A stretch of DNA of 64,000 nucleotides, taken from the NCBI GenBank assembly GCA_016187945.1, contig JACPIT010000005.1, positions 1,116,001-1,180,000 on the forward strand. Direction: 5' to 3'. The translations under genes and the position numbers were made by a program. Position 1 is the first letter of the stretch, and each line of letters starts with the position of its first letter. The notes beneath the pieces were generated by a model. The model worked only from the letters and a program-made list of their open reading frames with translations. It was not told where the DNA came from and made no database searches. This stretch comes from Opitutia bacterium (GTDB lineage Bacteria; Verrucomicrobiota; Verrucomicrobiia; Opitutales; Opitutaceae). Of this stretch, positions 48,723 to 53,454 are shown piece by piece.

Positions 48723-48863
48723 GTAGCGCCGGTCTCCGACCGGCGGAGCGAACTTCGAGCGGCGAACGAGCGGGCGAGGGTGGGCCGGCCGGCGGCGGGG
48801 GCGATATGGTTCGCGGCGGCGGGAGGCGGCGTTGGTTTTTCGCCGGTCGGAGACCGGCGCGAC
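48723..48863. repeat. GTAGCGCCGGTCTCCGACCGGCG inverted pair
   Basis: GTAGCGCCGGTCTCCGACCG (48723 on) and CGGTCGGAGACCGGCGCGAC (ending 48863) mirror each other with one mismatch, 95 bp apart. They occupy most of the gap between the divergent membrane protein and hrpA genes, so the promoters of both must lie in or beside the element. Confidence 0.75.
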
Positions 48864-48919
48864 GGGGTTTTCGTGCCTCGACGCGGCGGCGTTCGCGCTT
48901 TCACTCTGTCTGTTCGCGC

Positions 48920-51900
48920 ATGCCGCCGCCACGCCCACAACCGAGTTTCCGCATCGAGTTCCCGCCGGAACTGCCGATCAGCGCGCGTGCGGACGAAATT
49001 ATCGGCCTGTTGCTGAAACACCAAGTGATCGTGCTCGCGGGCGAAACCGGTTCGGGCAAGACGACGCAGATTCCGAAAATGGTCCTCGCCGCCGGCGGCG
49101 GCACGCGCGGCAAGATTGCCTGCACGCAACCGCGCCGCGTCGCGGCGGCCTCGGTGTCGCGCCGCGTCGCGGAGGAGCTGAACGTCGAGTGGGGCCGCGA
49201 GGTCGGCTGCAAGATCCGCTTTGCCGACCAGACGTCGCGCGACACGCTGATCAAGTTCATGACCGACGGCATGCTGCTCGCCGAGTTGCAGGGCGACCCG
49301 GAGCTGCGCGACTACGACACGATCATCGTCGACGAGGCGCACGAACGCTCGCTCAACATCGATTTCATCCTCGGTCACCTGCGCCGCCTGCGCCTGCGCC
49401 GGCCGGACCTGAAAATCGTCATCACGTCCGCGACGATCGACACGCAGGCGTTTTCCGATGCGTTCGACGGCGCGCCGATCGTCGAGGTGTCCGGCCGCAC
49501 GTATCCGGTCGAGGTGATCTGGTCGCCGTTGGAGGAGATGGGCGACGAGGAGGGTCGGGCGGGCGGTCCCTTGCCCGCCGAGAGTTCGCGGCGCGGAGCG
49601 GAGTCCGCGCCCCACCAAAATCGCGACCGCGACGAGTTCACCTACATCGACGGCGCCGTCGAAGCGGTCGAGCGTGTGCTGCGCGAGAGCGCCGAGGGCG
49701 ACATTCTCGTTTTTCTCCCCACCGAGCGCGACATCCGCGAAGTCACCGACCAGCTCGAAGGCCGGCGTGCGCGCGCCGTGGAAATCGTGCCGCTCTTCGG
49801 CCGGTTGACCAACGCCGAGCAACAGCGCGTGTTCGCGCCGACGCAGAAACGGAAAATCGTCGTCGCGACGAACATCGCGGAGACGTCGCTCACGATCCCC
49901 GGCATCCGCTTCGTGATCGACACCGGCCTCGCGCGCATCAGTCGCTACGTGCCGCAAAGCCGCACGCGCCGCCTGCCGGTCGAGCCGGTGGCGCAGAGCA
50001 GCGCCGACCAGCGCAAGGGCCGCTGCGGCCGCGTGAGCAACGGCGTATGCATCCGCCTCTACTCGGAGCAGGATTTCAACGAGCGCCCGCGTTTCGCGCA
50101 GCCGGAAATCCAGCGCAGCAATCTCGCCGACGTCATCCTGCGCATGAAGGCGTTCGGCCTCGGAGACATCGAGGACTTCCCGTTCCTGAACGCCCCGCCG
50201 GCGAAAGGCATCCGCGCCGGCTACGCGCTGCTCGAGGAACTGGGGGCGATTCAGAAATGTAGGGCGGGGTCGCCTCACCCCGCCGCGGACGGTGGTGCAG
50301 CGGACGAACGGCGGGGTCAGGAGACTCCGCCCTACAACGATCACGACTACGTCCTCACCGACCTCGGCCGCGATCTCGCGCACTTGCCGGTCGACCCGAC
50401 GGTCGGCCGCATGATCCTGCAGGCGCGAAACGAAAAATGCGTGCGCGAGGCGCTCGTGATTGCGGCGGCGTTGAGCATCCAGGATCCGCGCGAGCGTCCG
50501 CTCGACGCGCAGCAGAAGGCCGACGCCGCGCACCGGCGCTTCACGCATCCCGACTCGGATTTTCTCACGCTGCTCGCGATCTGGGAGGCGTATCACGACG
50601 ACTTCGAGACGATGACGCTCGGCAAGCTGCGGAAGTTCTGCACGGCGCATTTTCTCTCGTTCATGCGCATGCGCGAGTGGCGCGACGTGCACGCGCAGCT
50701 CATCGACACGATCGAGGGCGGCGAGGGCTTCGAGGATACGTCGGTGTTCGACGGCGTGGGTAGGGCCGGCTTCAGCCGGCCCCCGAGCGCGGCGGACAGA
50801 CAGGGGCCGGCTAAAGCCGGCCCTACTGAAGTCCGCGATCTGACGATGGGCACGCCGGGCTACCGCGCGATCCACCGCTCCATCCTCGCCGGCTTGCTCG
50901 GCAACATCGCCACGCGGCTGGACGACGGCACTTATCACGCCGCGCACGATCGCAAGGTTGCCGTGTTTCCCGGCTCGGCGTTGTTCGAGCGGCCGCAGCG
51001 CGAGAAAGTCGTCGCGCCGCGCAAGGAAGGGCCGCCGAAGCCGAAGCTCGCGCGCTGGCTCATGGCGTCCGAGATCATGGAGACGGGCCGCATCTACGCG
51101 CGCACGTGCGCGCGCATCGATCCGCATTGGGCGCTCGACCTCGGCGCGCACATCCTGCGCGTGTCGCATAGCGAGCCGTTCTGGAGTCCGGAAGCGGGCC
51201 GCGTGCTCGTGAAGGAGCGCCGCCGCCTCTACAATCTCGAGCTCGAGACGCGCTCGGTCGGCTACGGCAAAATCAACCCGCGCGAGGCGACAGAGATTTT
51301 CATCCGCGAGGGCCTCGTCGGCGACACGGTGACGTTCCCGCTCGATTTCATCGCGCACAACCGCCGCATCCGCGAAAAAGCCGAGAACGTCCTCACGCGC
51401 CTGCGCGCGGCGGGTTACATGAATCTCGACGAGGCGGTGTATCGCTTCTACGCGCGGCGGCTGATGCCGGAGGTGCCTGTGGGTAGGGCGAATCCTCCGG
51501 ATGAGCCGTCTCCCGTAGCGGGCGCGGTGCCTGCGGCTCGTCGGGACGACTCGCCCTACCTGGGCATCAGCAGCGTGCCGGAACTCGTCGACCTCGTGCG
51601 GCACCGGCAGACGACCGAGCCGAAATTTTTGTTCATGGGCGAGGACGACCTGAAGCCGCAGGTCGAGGAGACGCCCGATCATGCCGCATTTCCCGAGCAA
51701 TTGCCGCTCGAGAACCGCGCGCTGCCGCTGAACTACGCCTACAAGCCCGGCCAGGAGGACGACGGCGTCACGTTGCGCGTGAGCCTCGACGAGGCGGCCG
51801 AACTCGCGCCTGCGACGCTCGACTGGGCGGTGCCGGGGCATTTGCGCGAAAAGGTCGAGCTGATGCTGAAGGCGCTGCCGAAAGAGCAACGTCGCACGCT

Positions 51901-53296
51901 CATCCCGCTCGCTGAGACGGCGCAGAAACTCACCAGCGACATCCAGCTCATCGCCGCGCGCGAGCCGCAGCCGACGCTCGCGGCCGCGCTTGCCGAGGTG
52001 CTCACGCAGCGGCTCGGCGTGCGCATCGATCCGCGCGTCTGGGACGGCAAGACGTTGCCCGATCACCTGCGCGTGCGCGTCGAGGTGTTGGACAACAAGG
52101 GCGCCGTGCTCGGCGCGAGCCGCGAGCTGGCGGAGTTGCAGCAGCAGCTCGGCACGAAGCAGCGCGAGGTCAGTCAGCGCGCGGCGAAGACCGACAGCGC
52201 CGCCTGGCGCGCCGCACGGCAGAAATGGGAGACGCCGCCGGCGAACGACTGGAAGTTCGGCGACTTGCCGGGCTCGGTCGTCGTCACCGAGCAGGCCGGC
52301 GTGCCGGTGCGGGCGTTCCCGGGTTTGCTGGCGAGCGACGCGGGCGTGGCCGTGCGGCTGTTCGCGACGCCCGAGGAGGCGCGAGCCGCCACGCGCGTGG
52401 GCGCGCATCGCCTGCTCGAGGCGGCGTTGCGCTACGAACTCGGCTGGCTGGAGAAAGACCTGCGCGACCTGCGCGCGATCGGCACGCTGACGGTCACGCT
52501 CGCGCCGCTGGAGAAATTGCAGGCCGAGGCGCTCGAATCGATTCGGCGCTGGGTGACGGACGGGGCGCGCGTGGGCGGAGCGCGGCTGGCGGGTAGGGCG
52601 AGTTCTCCGAACGAGCCGTCCGGCGCTGCGGGTCCGATGGCGGCTCGTCCGGAGGACTCGCCCTACCTGACGCAGGCGATTTTCGAGCGCGCCGTCGGCG
52701 ACGCGAAGGCCGACCTGCGCGGACTCGTGCCGCGGCTCGTCGACTGGCTGCGCGAGACGCTGACGCTGCGGCTCGCGTTGCAGACGCACAAGACGCCGTA
52801 TCCGGGCATGGAGAACGATCTCGGCGCGCTGCTGCCGCCGGATTTCCTGCGGCGCACGCCGTTCGCGCGCGTGAAGGAGCTGCCGCGTTACCTGCGCGGC
52901 ATGCAGGCGCGCGCGGAGCGTTGGAAGCGCGATCCGGCGAAGGACGCGTCGCGCGCGCGCGAGTTGCAGCCGTTCGTGCAGGCGATCGCGCGGCTCGCGA
53001 CGTCGCGCGAGAGCGTCGGCGGGAATCGACCGCCGCTACAGCAGGCGGCGATCGACGAGTTTCGCTGGCTGGTGGAGGAGTTTCGCGTGAGCCTGTTCGC
53101 GCAGGAGCTGGGCACGGCCGAGCCGGTCTCCGCGGTGCGGTTGGAAAAGGCGCTGCGCGACCTCGCGGCGAACAAGGACAGCGCCGCCAGCGCCGCGCCG
53201 ACCGCGATGGAGAAACCGAAGGTCGCCGTGCCGTTGCCGACGAAGGGCAAGACGGTGTTCAAGAGCCTCGACGCGCTGGGGAATTTGCCGAGGTAG
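48920..53296 (+). CDS. hrpA: HrpA-type DEAH-box ATP-dependent RNA helicase
   Basis: 1458 residues from the ATG at 48920, longer than the roughly 1300 residues of Escherichia coli HrpA. Helicase motifs: GETGSGKTTQ (about 42), TQPRRVAAASVSRRVAEE, DEAHER (about 137), TSATID, FLPTERDIRE, ATNIAETSLTIPGIRFVIDT, QRKGRCGR. The HA2/OB and long C-terminal DUF3418-type region follow. HrpA remodels RNA and ribosomes. Five palindromic repeats lie in frame inside the gene and add peptides such as GRASSPNEPSGAAGP; without them the length would approach the usual one. All lie outside the motifs, so the protein is probably active. Confidence 0.92.
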   Translation: MPPPRPQPSFRIEFPPELPISARADEIIGLLLKHQVIVLAGETGSGKTTQIPKMVLAAGGGTRGKIACTQPRRVAAASVSRRVAEELNVEWGREVGCKIRFADQTSRDTLIKFMTDGMLLAELQGDPELRDYDTIIVDEAHERSLNIDFILGHLRRLRLRRPDLKIVITSATIDTQAFSDAFDGAPIVEVSGRTYPVEVIWSPLEEMGDEEGRAGGPLPAESSRRGAESAPHQNRDRDEFTYIDGAVEAVERVLRESAEGDILVFLPTERDIREVTDQLEGRRARAVEIVPLFGRLTNAEQQRVFAPTQKRKIVVATNIAETSLTIPGIRFVIDTGLARISRYVPQSRTRRLPVEPVAQSSADQRKGRCGRVSNGVCIRLYSEQDFNERPRFAQPEIQRSNLADVILRMKAFGLGDIEDFPFLNAPPAKGIRAGYALLEELGAIQKCRAGSPHPAADGGAADERRGQETPPYNDHDYVLTDLGRDLAHLPVDPTVGRMILQARNEKCVREALVIAAALSIQDPRERPLDAQQKADAAHRRFTHPDSDFLTLLAIWEAYHDDFETMTLGKLRKFCTAHFLSFMRMREWRDVHAQLIDTIEGGEGFEDTSVFDGVGRAGFSRPPSAADRQGPAKAGPTEVRDLTMGTPGYRAIHRSILAGLLGNIATRLDDGTYHAAHDRKVAVFPGSALFERPQREKVVAPRKEGPPKPKLARWLMASEIMETGRIYARTCARIDPHWALDLGAHILRVSHSEPFWSPEAGRVLVKERRRLYNLELETRSVGYGKINPREATEIFIREGLVGDTVTFPLDFIAHNRRIREKAENVLTRLRAAGYMNLDEAVYRFYARRLMPEVPVGRANPPDEPSPVAGAVPAARRDDSPYLGISSVPELVDLVRHRQTTEPKFLFMGEDDLKPQVEETPDHAAFPEQLPLENRALPLNYAYKPGQEDDGVTLRVSLDEAAELAPATLDWAVPGHLREKVELMLKALPKEQRRTLIPLAETAQKLTSDIQLIAAREPQPTLAAALAEVLTQRLGVRIDPRVWDGKTLPDHLRVRVEVLDNKGAVLGASRELAELQQQLGTKQREVSQRAAKTDSAAWRAARQKWETPPANDWKFGDLPGSVVVTEQAGVPVRAFPGLLASDAGVAVRLFATPEEARAATRVGAHRLLEAALRYELGWLEKDLRDLRAIGTLTVTLAPLEKLQAEALESIRRWVTDGARVGGARLAGRASSPNEPSGAAGPMAARPEDSPYLTQAIFERAVGDAKADLRGLVPRLVDWLRETLTLRLALQTHKTPYPGMENDLGALLPPDFLRRTPFARVKELPRYLRGMQARAERWKRDPAKDASRARELQPFVQAIARLATSRESVGGNRPPLQQAAIDEFRWLVEEFRVSLFAQELGTAEPVSAVRLEKALRDLAANKDSAASAAPTAMEKPKVAVPLPTKGKTVFKSLDALGNLPR
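49554..49616. repeat. In-frame repeat 1 in hrpA
   Basis: GCGGGCGGTCCCTTGCCCGC hairpin followed by GGCGCGGAGCGGAGTCCGCG and CCCCACC. It adds about 21 residues (GRAGGPLPAESSRRGAESAP) between the two helicase lobes after the RecA1 domain. Confidence 0.7.
50258..50336. repeat. In-frame palindromic repeat 2 in hrpA
   Basis: TGTAGGGCGGGGTCGCCTCA at the left mirrors TCAGGAGACTCCGCCCTACA at the right with a few mismatches. Encodes CRAGSPHPAADGGAADERRG and QETPPYN between AIQK and DHDYVLTDLG. Confidence 0.85.
50759..50827. repeat. In-frame palindromic repeat 3 in hrpA
   Basis: 24-bp arms GTAGGGCCGGCTTCAGCCGG(CCCC) and its complement with one mismatch. Encodes GRAGFSRPPSAADRQGPAKA followed by GP. Confidence 0.85.
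51482..51560. repeat. In-frame palindromic repeat 4 in hrpA
   Basis: GGTAGGGCGAATCCTCCGGA at the left, TCGGGACGACTCGCCCTACC at the right. Encodes GRANPPDEPSPVAGAVPAAR and RDDSPYL. Confidence 0.85.
52592..52667. repeat. In-frame palindromic repeat 5 in hrpA
   Basis: GGTAGGGCGAGTTCTCCGAA at the left, TCCGGAGGACTCGCCCTACC at the right; sister of repeat 4 and read in the same frame (GRASSPNEPSGAAGPMAARP, then EDSPYL). Confidence 0.85.
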
Positions 53297-53329: not shown

Positions 53330-53454
53330 GGCCAAACGGCCAAACGGCCAAACGCCAAAATGCGCGGGCGGGCGTTTTTTGCAGGAGCGGCTTTACGCCG
53401 CGATACAAACGCGGCGCGCGCAGCGGAGCAGTCGCGGCGTAAAGCCGCTCCGAC
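53330..53454. repeat. GGCCAAAC tandem repeat and TAGGAGCGGC-type palindrome
   Basis: Three exact GGCCAAAC units (about 53330-53354) are followed by GCAGGAGCGGCTTTACGCCG (53381 on), whose mirror ends at 53454; this is the same family as 43213-43296. Further right GCGTTTGGCCGCTTGG and TTTGGCCTTTTGCCG mirror the first repeat. The 301-bp gap before the CBS gene holds nothing else. Confidence 0.75.

Follow-up and report, generated by a model that had tools for sequence, protein, structure and literature searches.

Five GTAG-type REP doublets lie in frame within one hrpA helicase gene of an Opitutaceae bacterium

The hrpA gene found in a 64,000-nucleotide stretch of an Opitutaceae genome (hereafter the window, meaning the whole of the DNA that was analysed) carries five inserts, each of which is a GTAG-type REP doublet comprising two inverted hairpins with GTAG (worn in one insert) at their foot. 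This doublet form is also named REPIN or BIME. The inserts are a known kind of element at an unusual density for a single gene, and we consider it very probable that they are REPINs moved by RAYT transposases, which inserted repeatedly into five variable and re-used loops of the HrpA protein.

Five in-frame inserts in hrpA

A Pfam domain search of the hrpA product identified DEAD, Helicase_C, HA2_C, OB_NTP_bind and DUF3418 domains, and its best solved structural match is HrpA from E. coli (9ggr/9gft, E about 1e-233). The gene and its inserts, named E1 to E5, are as follows.

48920..53296, plus strand: hrpA-type gene for a DEAH RNA helicase of 1458 aa, carrying all five inserts (Pfam and structure matches)
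49554..49615, plus strand: E1, family B REP doublet with worn tags, GTCG ... CCAC; peptide GRAGGPLPAESSRRGAESAPHQ
50259..50335, plus strand: E2, family G REP doublet; peptide CRAGSPHPAADGGAADERRGQETPPY
50760..50826, plus strand: E3, family E REP doublet, before the OB domain; peptide GRAGFSRPPSAADRQGPAKAGPT
51483..51559, plus strand: E4, family A REP doublet, before DUF3418; peptide GRANPPDEPSPVAGAVPAARRDDSPY
52593..52666, plus strand: E5, family A REP doublet with a GTTC-subtype left arm, inside DUF3418; peptide GRASSPNEPSGAAGPMAARPEDSPY

The hrpA open reading frame is uninterrupted across all five inserts, as a preliminary description of this DNA had claimed for five palindromic elements. 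E1 lies between the two RecA-like domains. GTAGGGC occurs at 50259, 50760, 51483 and 52593, and GCCCTAC ends at 50335, 50826, 51559 and 52666; the preliminary description had placed the start of the first element correctly at 49554 and those of the other four one base early (50258, 50759, 51482 and 52592). It had also stated that most of the elements share one phase, and all five tags are in fact in phase xGT, that of E1 being taken from its coordinate. From E1 to E5, the families run B, G, E, A, A.

We obtained a structure model of residues 1-900, which covers E1 to E4, from 26 sequences (mean pLDDT 69.7, pTM 0.56). E1 to E4 fall in, or largely in, stretches with a pLDDT below 50, namely residues 209-239 (E1), 451-474 (E2), 614-638 (E3) and 852-900 (E4), the last of which coincides with the cut end of the modelled piece; residues 345-400, which hold no insert, are also modelled poorly. 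Each insert can be read as a hydrophilic peptide of 22-26 residues that is probably unstructured.

The inserts belong to REP families found throughout the genome

When the genome to which the window belongs (G000; 5.47 Mb in 16 contigs) was searched for exact GTAGGGC...GCCCTAC pairs, we identified 28 whose tags are 20-50 bases apart and 97 with a spacing of 51-80, compared with 0 and 1 match for a reversed-pattern control at the same two spacings. This high copy number, together with the 73 units of family A described below, is that of REP doublets, and the two units of the inserts likewise stand in inverted orientation. GTAG is exact at the hairpin foot in four of the five elements. In the fifth, E1, it is worn to GTCG/CCAC (the ends read GTCGGGC and GCCCCAC), and the preliminary description had classed this element as another type. 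However, doublets with intact GTAG/CTAC ends elsewhere in the genome share its right hairpin exactly and have a similar left hairpin. Because its hairpins match family B doublets with intact tags, and because an orthologue is present in the homologue L043, E1 is a GTAG-class doublet with mutated tags.

Several REP families coexist in this genome. The family labels A to H were coined in this analysis, and the sequences of A to E are as follows.

Family A: unit GGCGANNNNTCCNNNNGAGCC
Family B: GGCGGCGAGTCCCTTCGCCGCC with GGCGCGGAGCGGAGTCCGCGCC
Family C: GGGGCCGTTGCCC.CAACGG
Family D: GGCGGGACCGCTGGGCCCGCC
Family E: GGGCCGGCTTCAGCCGGCCC

The stem of family A, as read from the sequence, contains GA/AG mismatches. 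The most common A subtype was genic in 13 of 50 units, compared with 13 of 24 units of the other subtypes (Fisher p = 0.022), a contrast that was picked post hoc and is not relied on here.

RAYT genes with REP flanks and the junctions of the doublets

A profile search with PF01797 (Y1_Tnp) identified eight places in the window's genome at E <= 0.001, of which only two were found on inspection to have inverted REP flanks. The RAYT gene at one of these (L010; contig C11, 5612-6058) is flanked by inverted A-family units, while the other (L008; contig C15, about 188 kb) is flanked by GTAGGAGCGGCTTTACGCCGCG units. Relatives of the L010-type RAYT, 73% identical in genome G001 and 64% identical in G005, are both flanked by inverted A units, which in G005 are of the GTTC subtype, and D-type REPs flank another RAYT in G001. 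Amongst 12 RAYT loci that were inspected in a separate set, eight (L234-L236 and L241-L245) have inverted REP-like flanks of some type and four (L237-L240) have no REP flanks. For E4 and E5, which belong to family A, the window's genome contains a RAYT flanked by the same REPs. Families B, E and G (E1, E3 and E2, respectively), three of the four present in hrpA, were not linked to any RAYT.

The genomes with an A-type RAYT at 100, 73 and 64% identity (G000, G001 and G005) hold 73, 22 and 65 A units, and no A units were found in G007 or G008 (79% complete), whose best RAYTs are 46-47% identical to the A-type. G003 and G012 (86% complete) do not fit this simple rule linking RAYT and REP, as they hold 33 and 29 A units, yet their closest RAYTs are only 42 and 39% identical.

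At L010:1309-1881, the RAYT open frame extends at each end into the adjacent REPs (VGRVVPTSRR close to the start and GSSGTTRPT at the end), and the transposase may therefore have REP-coded tails, depending on where it really starts.

TnpA-REP (RAYT) cleaves at CT, or at CT and CA, beside the hairpin, and E. coli REP stems contain a bulge (PMC8266576). Target-site duplications, which the preliminary description had expected, are absent: none of 88 doublets classified in this genome has a duplicated flank of at least four bases (0.29 expected from shuffled partners), and a classical MITE was rejected on this ground. CT follows CTAC at 48 of 176 doublet ends (27%) versus 7% of 4030 background CTAC sites, and CA follows at 22 of the 176, giving 70 ends with either. 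The bases that follow the inserts in hrpA are CT for E4 and E5, CA for E1, AA for E2 and TG for E3. Both the lack of target-site duplication and the excess of CT match RAYT chemistry, as expected.

Doublets within other genes

To relate doublets to genes, we used a coding sample of 464 kb comprising 20 evenly spaced 20-kb stretches on contig C9 along with the window, 81% of which was coding according to a codon-usage gene finder written for this analysis. The sample held 16 exact doublets, and as only six of these were genic (four of them in HrpA), genes contain fewer doublets than their share of the sequence would predict. With 60 more stretches added around doublets among the matches listed, 88 doublets were classified altogether: 54 are intergenic, 15 overlap a gene end, and 19 lie within the open frames of 14 genes. 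Genic copies, which the preliminary description had proposed to count genome-wide, are thus present in HrpA and 13 further open frames. The genes include HrpA, UvrA, Mfd (two), PurL, an FMN dehydrogenase, an SNF2 helicase, MnmA, and AcrB-type pumps with two doublets in one and one in another. A further gene with a doublet, L172, has no Pfam match, and the flanks of the doublet in L195 score near zero for coding.

UvrA usually has about half of the 2053 residues predicted at L189:772-6930, where the gene contains one exact REP doublet.

Fifteen of the 19 genic doublets are in phase xGT AGG and four in GTA GGG. The third phase does not occur; it is excluded because the tag would put TAG in frame, and its absence is no evidence of bias. 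For the phase bias that had been suspected in the preliminary description, the split between the two other phases is suggestive when elements are counted (15:4, p = 0.019) but not significant over genes (10:4, p = 0.18), which amounts to a hint of bias beyond the stop codon. The commoner phase yields charged, proline-rich peptides. Six of the 19 doublets have a length divisible by three, so in the other 13 flanking bases helped to keep the frame.

REP families differ at the same HrpA loops amongst relatives

The window's HrpA was aligned with 72 homologues, giving 73 sequences; the duplicate loci L014, L015, L020, L026 and L041 and homologues with a summed score <= 1000 were left out, while the duplicate pairs L035/L043 and L038/L070 were kept, and related sequences are not independent events. 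E. coli HrpA is without the five stretches, with breaks or gaps in the alignment at 212-238, about 446-470, 598-647, 852-930 and 1183-1298. Most of the distant homologues have short loops at E2 to E5, and at E1 many have a different loop of 17-18 residues or one that was not measurable. Some near relatives also have short loops; in many relatives, REP-like or long loops are retained. The expectation of clean insertions in such an alignment was therefore borne out in part: E. coli and many outgroup HrpA proteins are short, but near relatives often hold other REP-derived peptides. As no exactly clean empty site was found among HrpA E2, two Mfd sites, PurL and the FMN dehydrogenase, clean insertion is not claimed here; relatives of the same genus have a short E2 loop and no insert, but their flanking codons differ too.

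A scan of the 73 HrpA coding sequences identified 19 near-intact doublets in 12 genes, and all 19 are at the five loops (E1 5, E2 4, E3 1, E4 4, E5 5), 16 in phase xGT and three in phase GTA. Six permuted control tags gave no matches in the same scan. An earlier hairpin rule, blind to the bulged A family, had given seven doublets and its control GGTAGG, the true tag offset by a single base, had given two before replacement. The families found at each loop in the relatives are as follows.

E1 loop: A, B, C, D, H
E2 loop: A, D, G
E3 loop: E, F
E4 loop: A, B, C, and the tandems A+B (L043) and D+B (L045)
E5 loop: A, B, C, D, G and one more

In HrpA from the near relative G001 (L016), for example, E1 is of family H, E2 is short, E3 is an unrecognised loop of 26 residues, E4 is a family A doublet with the same arms as E4 of the window, and E5 is of family C. 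On a tree of 36 of the 73 HrpA rows, built with the insert columns removed and with loop labels set partly by hand, a minimum of 21 changes between named families is required (E1 7, E2 3, E3 1, E4 3, E5 7), or 35 if short loops are treated as a state and long unrecognised loops as unknown.

Similar differences are found in other proteins. In Mfd, A and D types occupy one loop in different relatives, and the PurL loop near residue 830 (window genome numbering) is occupied by a B doublet in that genome and by family H, of the GTAGCCGGGGTCGC.GACCCCGG type, in G001 and G015 (L216 and L221). The FMN dehydrogenase loop holds subtypes of family A across relatives.

The two elements that stand in tandem at E4 of L043 (A+B) and L045 (D+B) look like swap intermediates, and the repeated right-hand ends in the FMN dehydrogenases L230 and L233 are possible replacement intermediates. 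Different families have equal right-hand spacing, but we do not take this to prove that they were swapped in place, since it is trivial where the short loop is two residues (E4).

Proposed origin of the inserts and alternative explanations

We propose that the inserts are non-autonomous elements that would be moved as single strands by a RAYT (TnpA-REP, Y1 HUH) encoded elsewhere. Members of several REP families, some or all of which have a RAYT of their own, would have repeatedly entered five variable loops that separate or adjoin the folded regions of HrpA. Survival would be limited to insertions that preserve the frame and do not bring the TAG within the tag into it, leaving each insert readable as a peptide; the inserts are presumably translated and neutral for the HrpA protein. 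A loop would be re-used when another family takes over from a resident element that has decayed or disappeared.

Exchange of whole hrpA alleles, elements included, between relatives by homologous recombination could also produce a patchwork of families, which would then reflect gene exchange and not insertion at the same loop. Consistent with this, the flank of E2 in the window (residues 429-452) is nearest L045 (92%, versus 71-83% for L016 and L017), while further out (381-404 and 541-564) L016/L017 reach 90-98%. Moreover, the GTTC subtype seen in the left arm of E5 is rare in the window's genome (one of the 73 A units listed), and is present in several G005 units among the matches listed and, in G003 and G012, within loops of HrpA, Mfd or the FMN dehydrogenase. 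However, the E2 doublets differ in family, being G in the window and D in L045, so the E2 insert was not copied from an L045-like allele. In addition, across seven genomes, families A and C were found in HrpA only where the genome holds that family elsewhere. Family C, with the HrpA copies counted in, has 15 copies in G001, 6 in G005 and 10 in G008, and these are the genomes with C in HrpA; it is not in HrpA of G007 (one copy) or of G000, G003 and G012 (no copies). Family A is in HrpA of G000, G001, G003 and G012, all of which hold A units, and not in that of G007 or G008, which have none; G005, with its 65 A units, has none in its HrpA. We regard allele exchange as an unlikely, though credible, source of the pattern.

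It is considerably less probable that the peptides were domesticated as flexible linkers selected for a function in HrpA. The filling of all five loops in the window, the REP-like or long loops of many relatives, and the charged, proline-rich character of the peptides from the commoner phase would all suit such a role, but short loops are found in many outgroups and some near relatives, E. coli HrpA has no inserts, the family and sequence at a given loop change often, and REPs are also found in UvrA, Mfd, AcrB-type pumps, PurL and others.

The peptide could instead be the by-product of hairpins that act in mRNA or DNA, through pausing, stability or protein binding, which we consider very improbable. 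Four of the five elements do fold strongly as single-stranded DNA relative to shuffled sequence (z of -6.45 for E2, -7.08 for E3, -3.03 for E4 and -7.09 for E5), and these fold end to end. E1, however, folds as two separate hairpins and is no longer clearly better at folding than shuffled versions of itself (z -1.69; 11 of 200 shuffles fold equally well), and this weak fold, along with the worn copies kept in relatives, argues against a kept hairpin function in hrpA. Chance palindromes in GC-rich coding sequence (the window has a G+C content of 63%) are refuted by the genome-wide counts of family repeats and the near-empty controls.

Beyond repeated insertion of RAYT-moved REPINs into HrpA, we tentatively suggest that loops of Opitutaceae core proteins may be shared, long-lived docking sites where REP families, each with its own RAYT, replace one another, an idea that we hold to be plausible without yet favouring it. 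It is based on HrpA, Mfd and PurL, and on the FMN dehydrogenase with subtypes of one family. A new element would probably insert beside a resident that offers a CT/CA cleavage site, and the old one would then be lost. If this is true, core proteins would have in mobile DNA a lasting supply of new unstructured loops, and loop sequence would follow the REP family active in the genome.

Relation to known systems

GTAG REP families have been described previously, with O. terrae as the species with the most intragenic GTAG repeats, RNA helicases among its intragenic targets, and recB genes of two Xanthomonas species carrying distinct REPs at roughly one position (PMC3733652, 2013). The elements described here share with those of O. 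terrae the tag, the hairpin, inverted dimers, several families per genome, and inserts within open frames that include RNA helicases and DNA-repair genes, but differ in that five doublets lie in one gene, whereas that article mentions ORFs that are hit twice (PMC3733652). The window's nearest named relatives are also Opitutus-like. Compared with REPINs and their RAYT/TnpA-REP, the inverted REP pairs, the Y1 HUH transposase gene flanked by the same REPs, and the CT/CA cleavage site are the same (PMC8266576), while the many families per genome and the in-frame genic copies are different.

The preliminary description had likened the inserts to Rickettsia palindromic elements, a comparison with GTAG REPs that had already been made for the RPEs of R. 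conorii (PMC3733652). The likeness holds in effect, as both are palindromic inserts kept in frame within genes and readable as peptides, but not as membership or as a parallel that is itself unplaced: the R. conorii elements are CGTC-tagged and without dedicated transposase genes (PMC3733652), whereas the GTAG tag, the hairpins, the inverted doublets and the REP-flanked RAYT genes place the elements described here with the GTAG-REP/RAYT systems. The five-insert gene is thereby assigned to a known class and the Rickettsia comparison is corrected.

The sequence comparisons suggest that the new part is the turnover of REP families at shared loops. The term hrpA is absent from the main text of PMC3733652, and the available portions of that article describe different families at one loop in relatives only in the recB remark; amongst the open-licence PMC papers listed, none addresses REP-family swapping at shared protein loops in its title or opening lines. 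One loop with differing mobile families across many species would constitute a natural series in which to study by what route mobile DNA turns into protein sequence and how much a core enzyme can tolerate.

Other repeats lie next to the gene. Just 3' of hrpA, the inverted pair GCAGGAGCGGCTTTACGCCGCG ... CGCGGCGTAAAGCCGCTCCGAC (53381-53454) is a worn doublet of another REP family; GTAGGAGCGGCTTTACGCCGCG is the unit found on both sides of the L008 RAYT. Upstream of hrpA (48723-48865), GTAGCGCCGGTCTCCGACCGGCG is followed by an inverted CGCCGGTCGGAGACCGGCG, and this pair resembles the hairpins of GTAGGGCCGGTC... doublets elsewhere in the genome.
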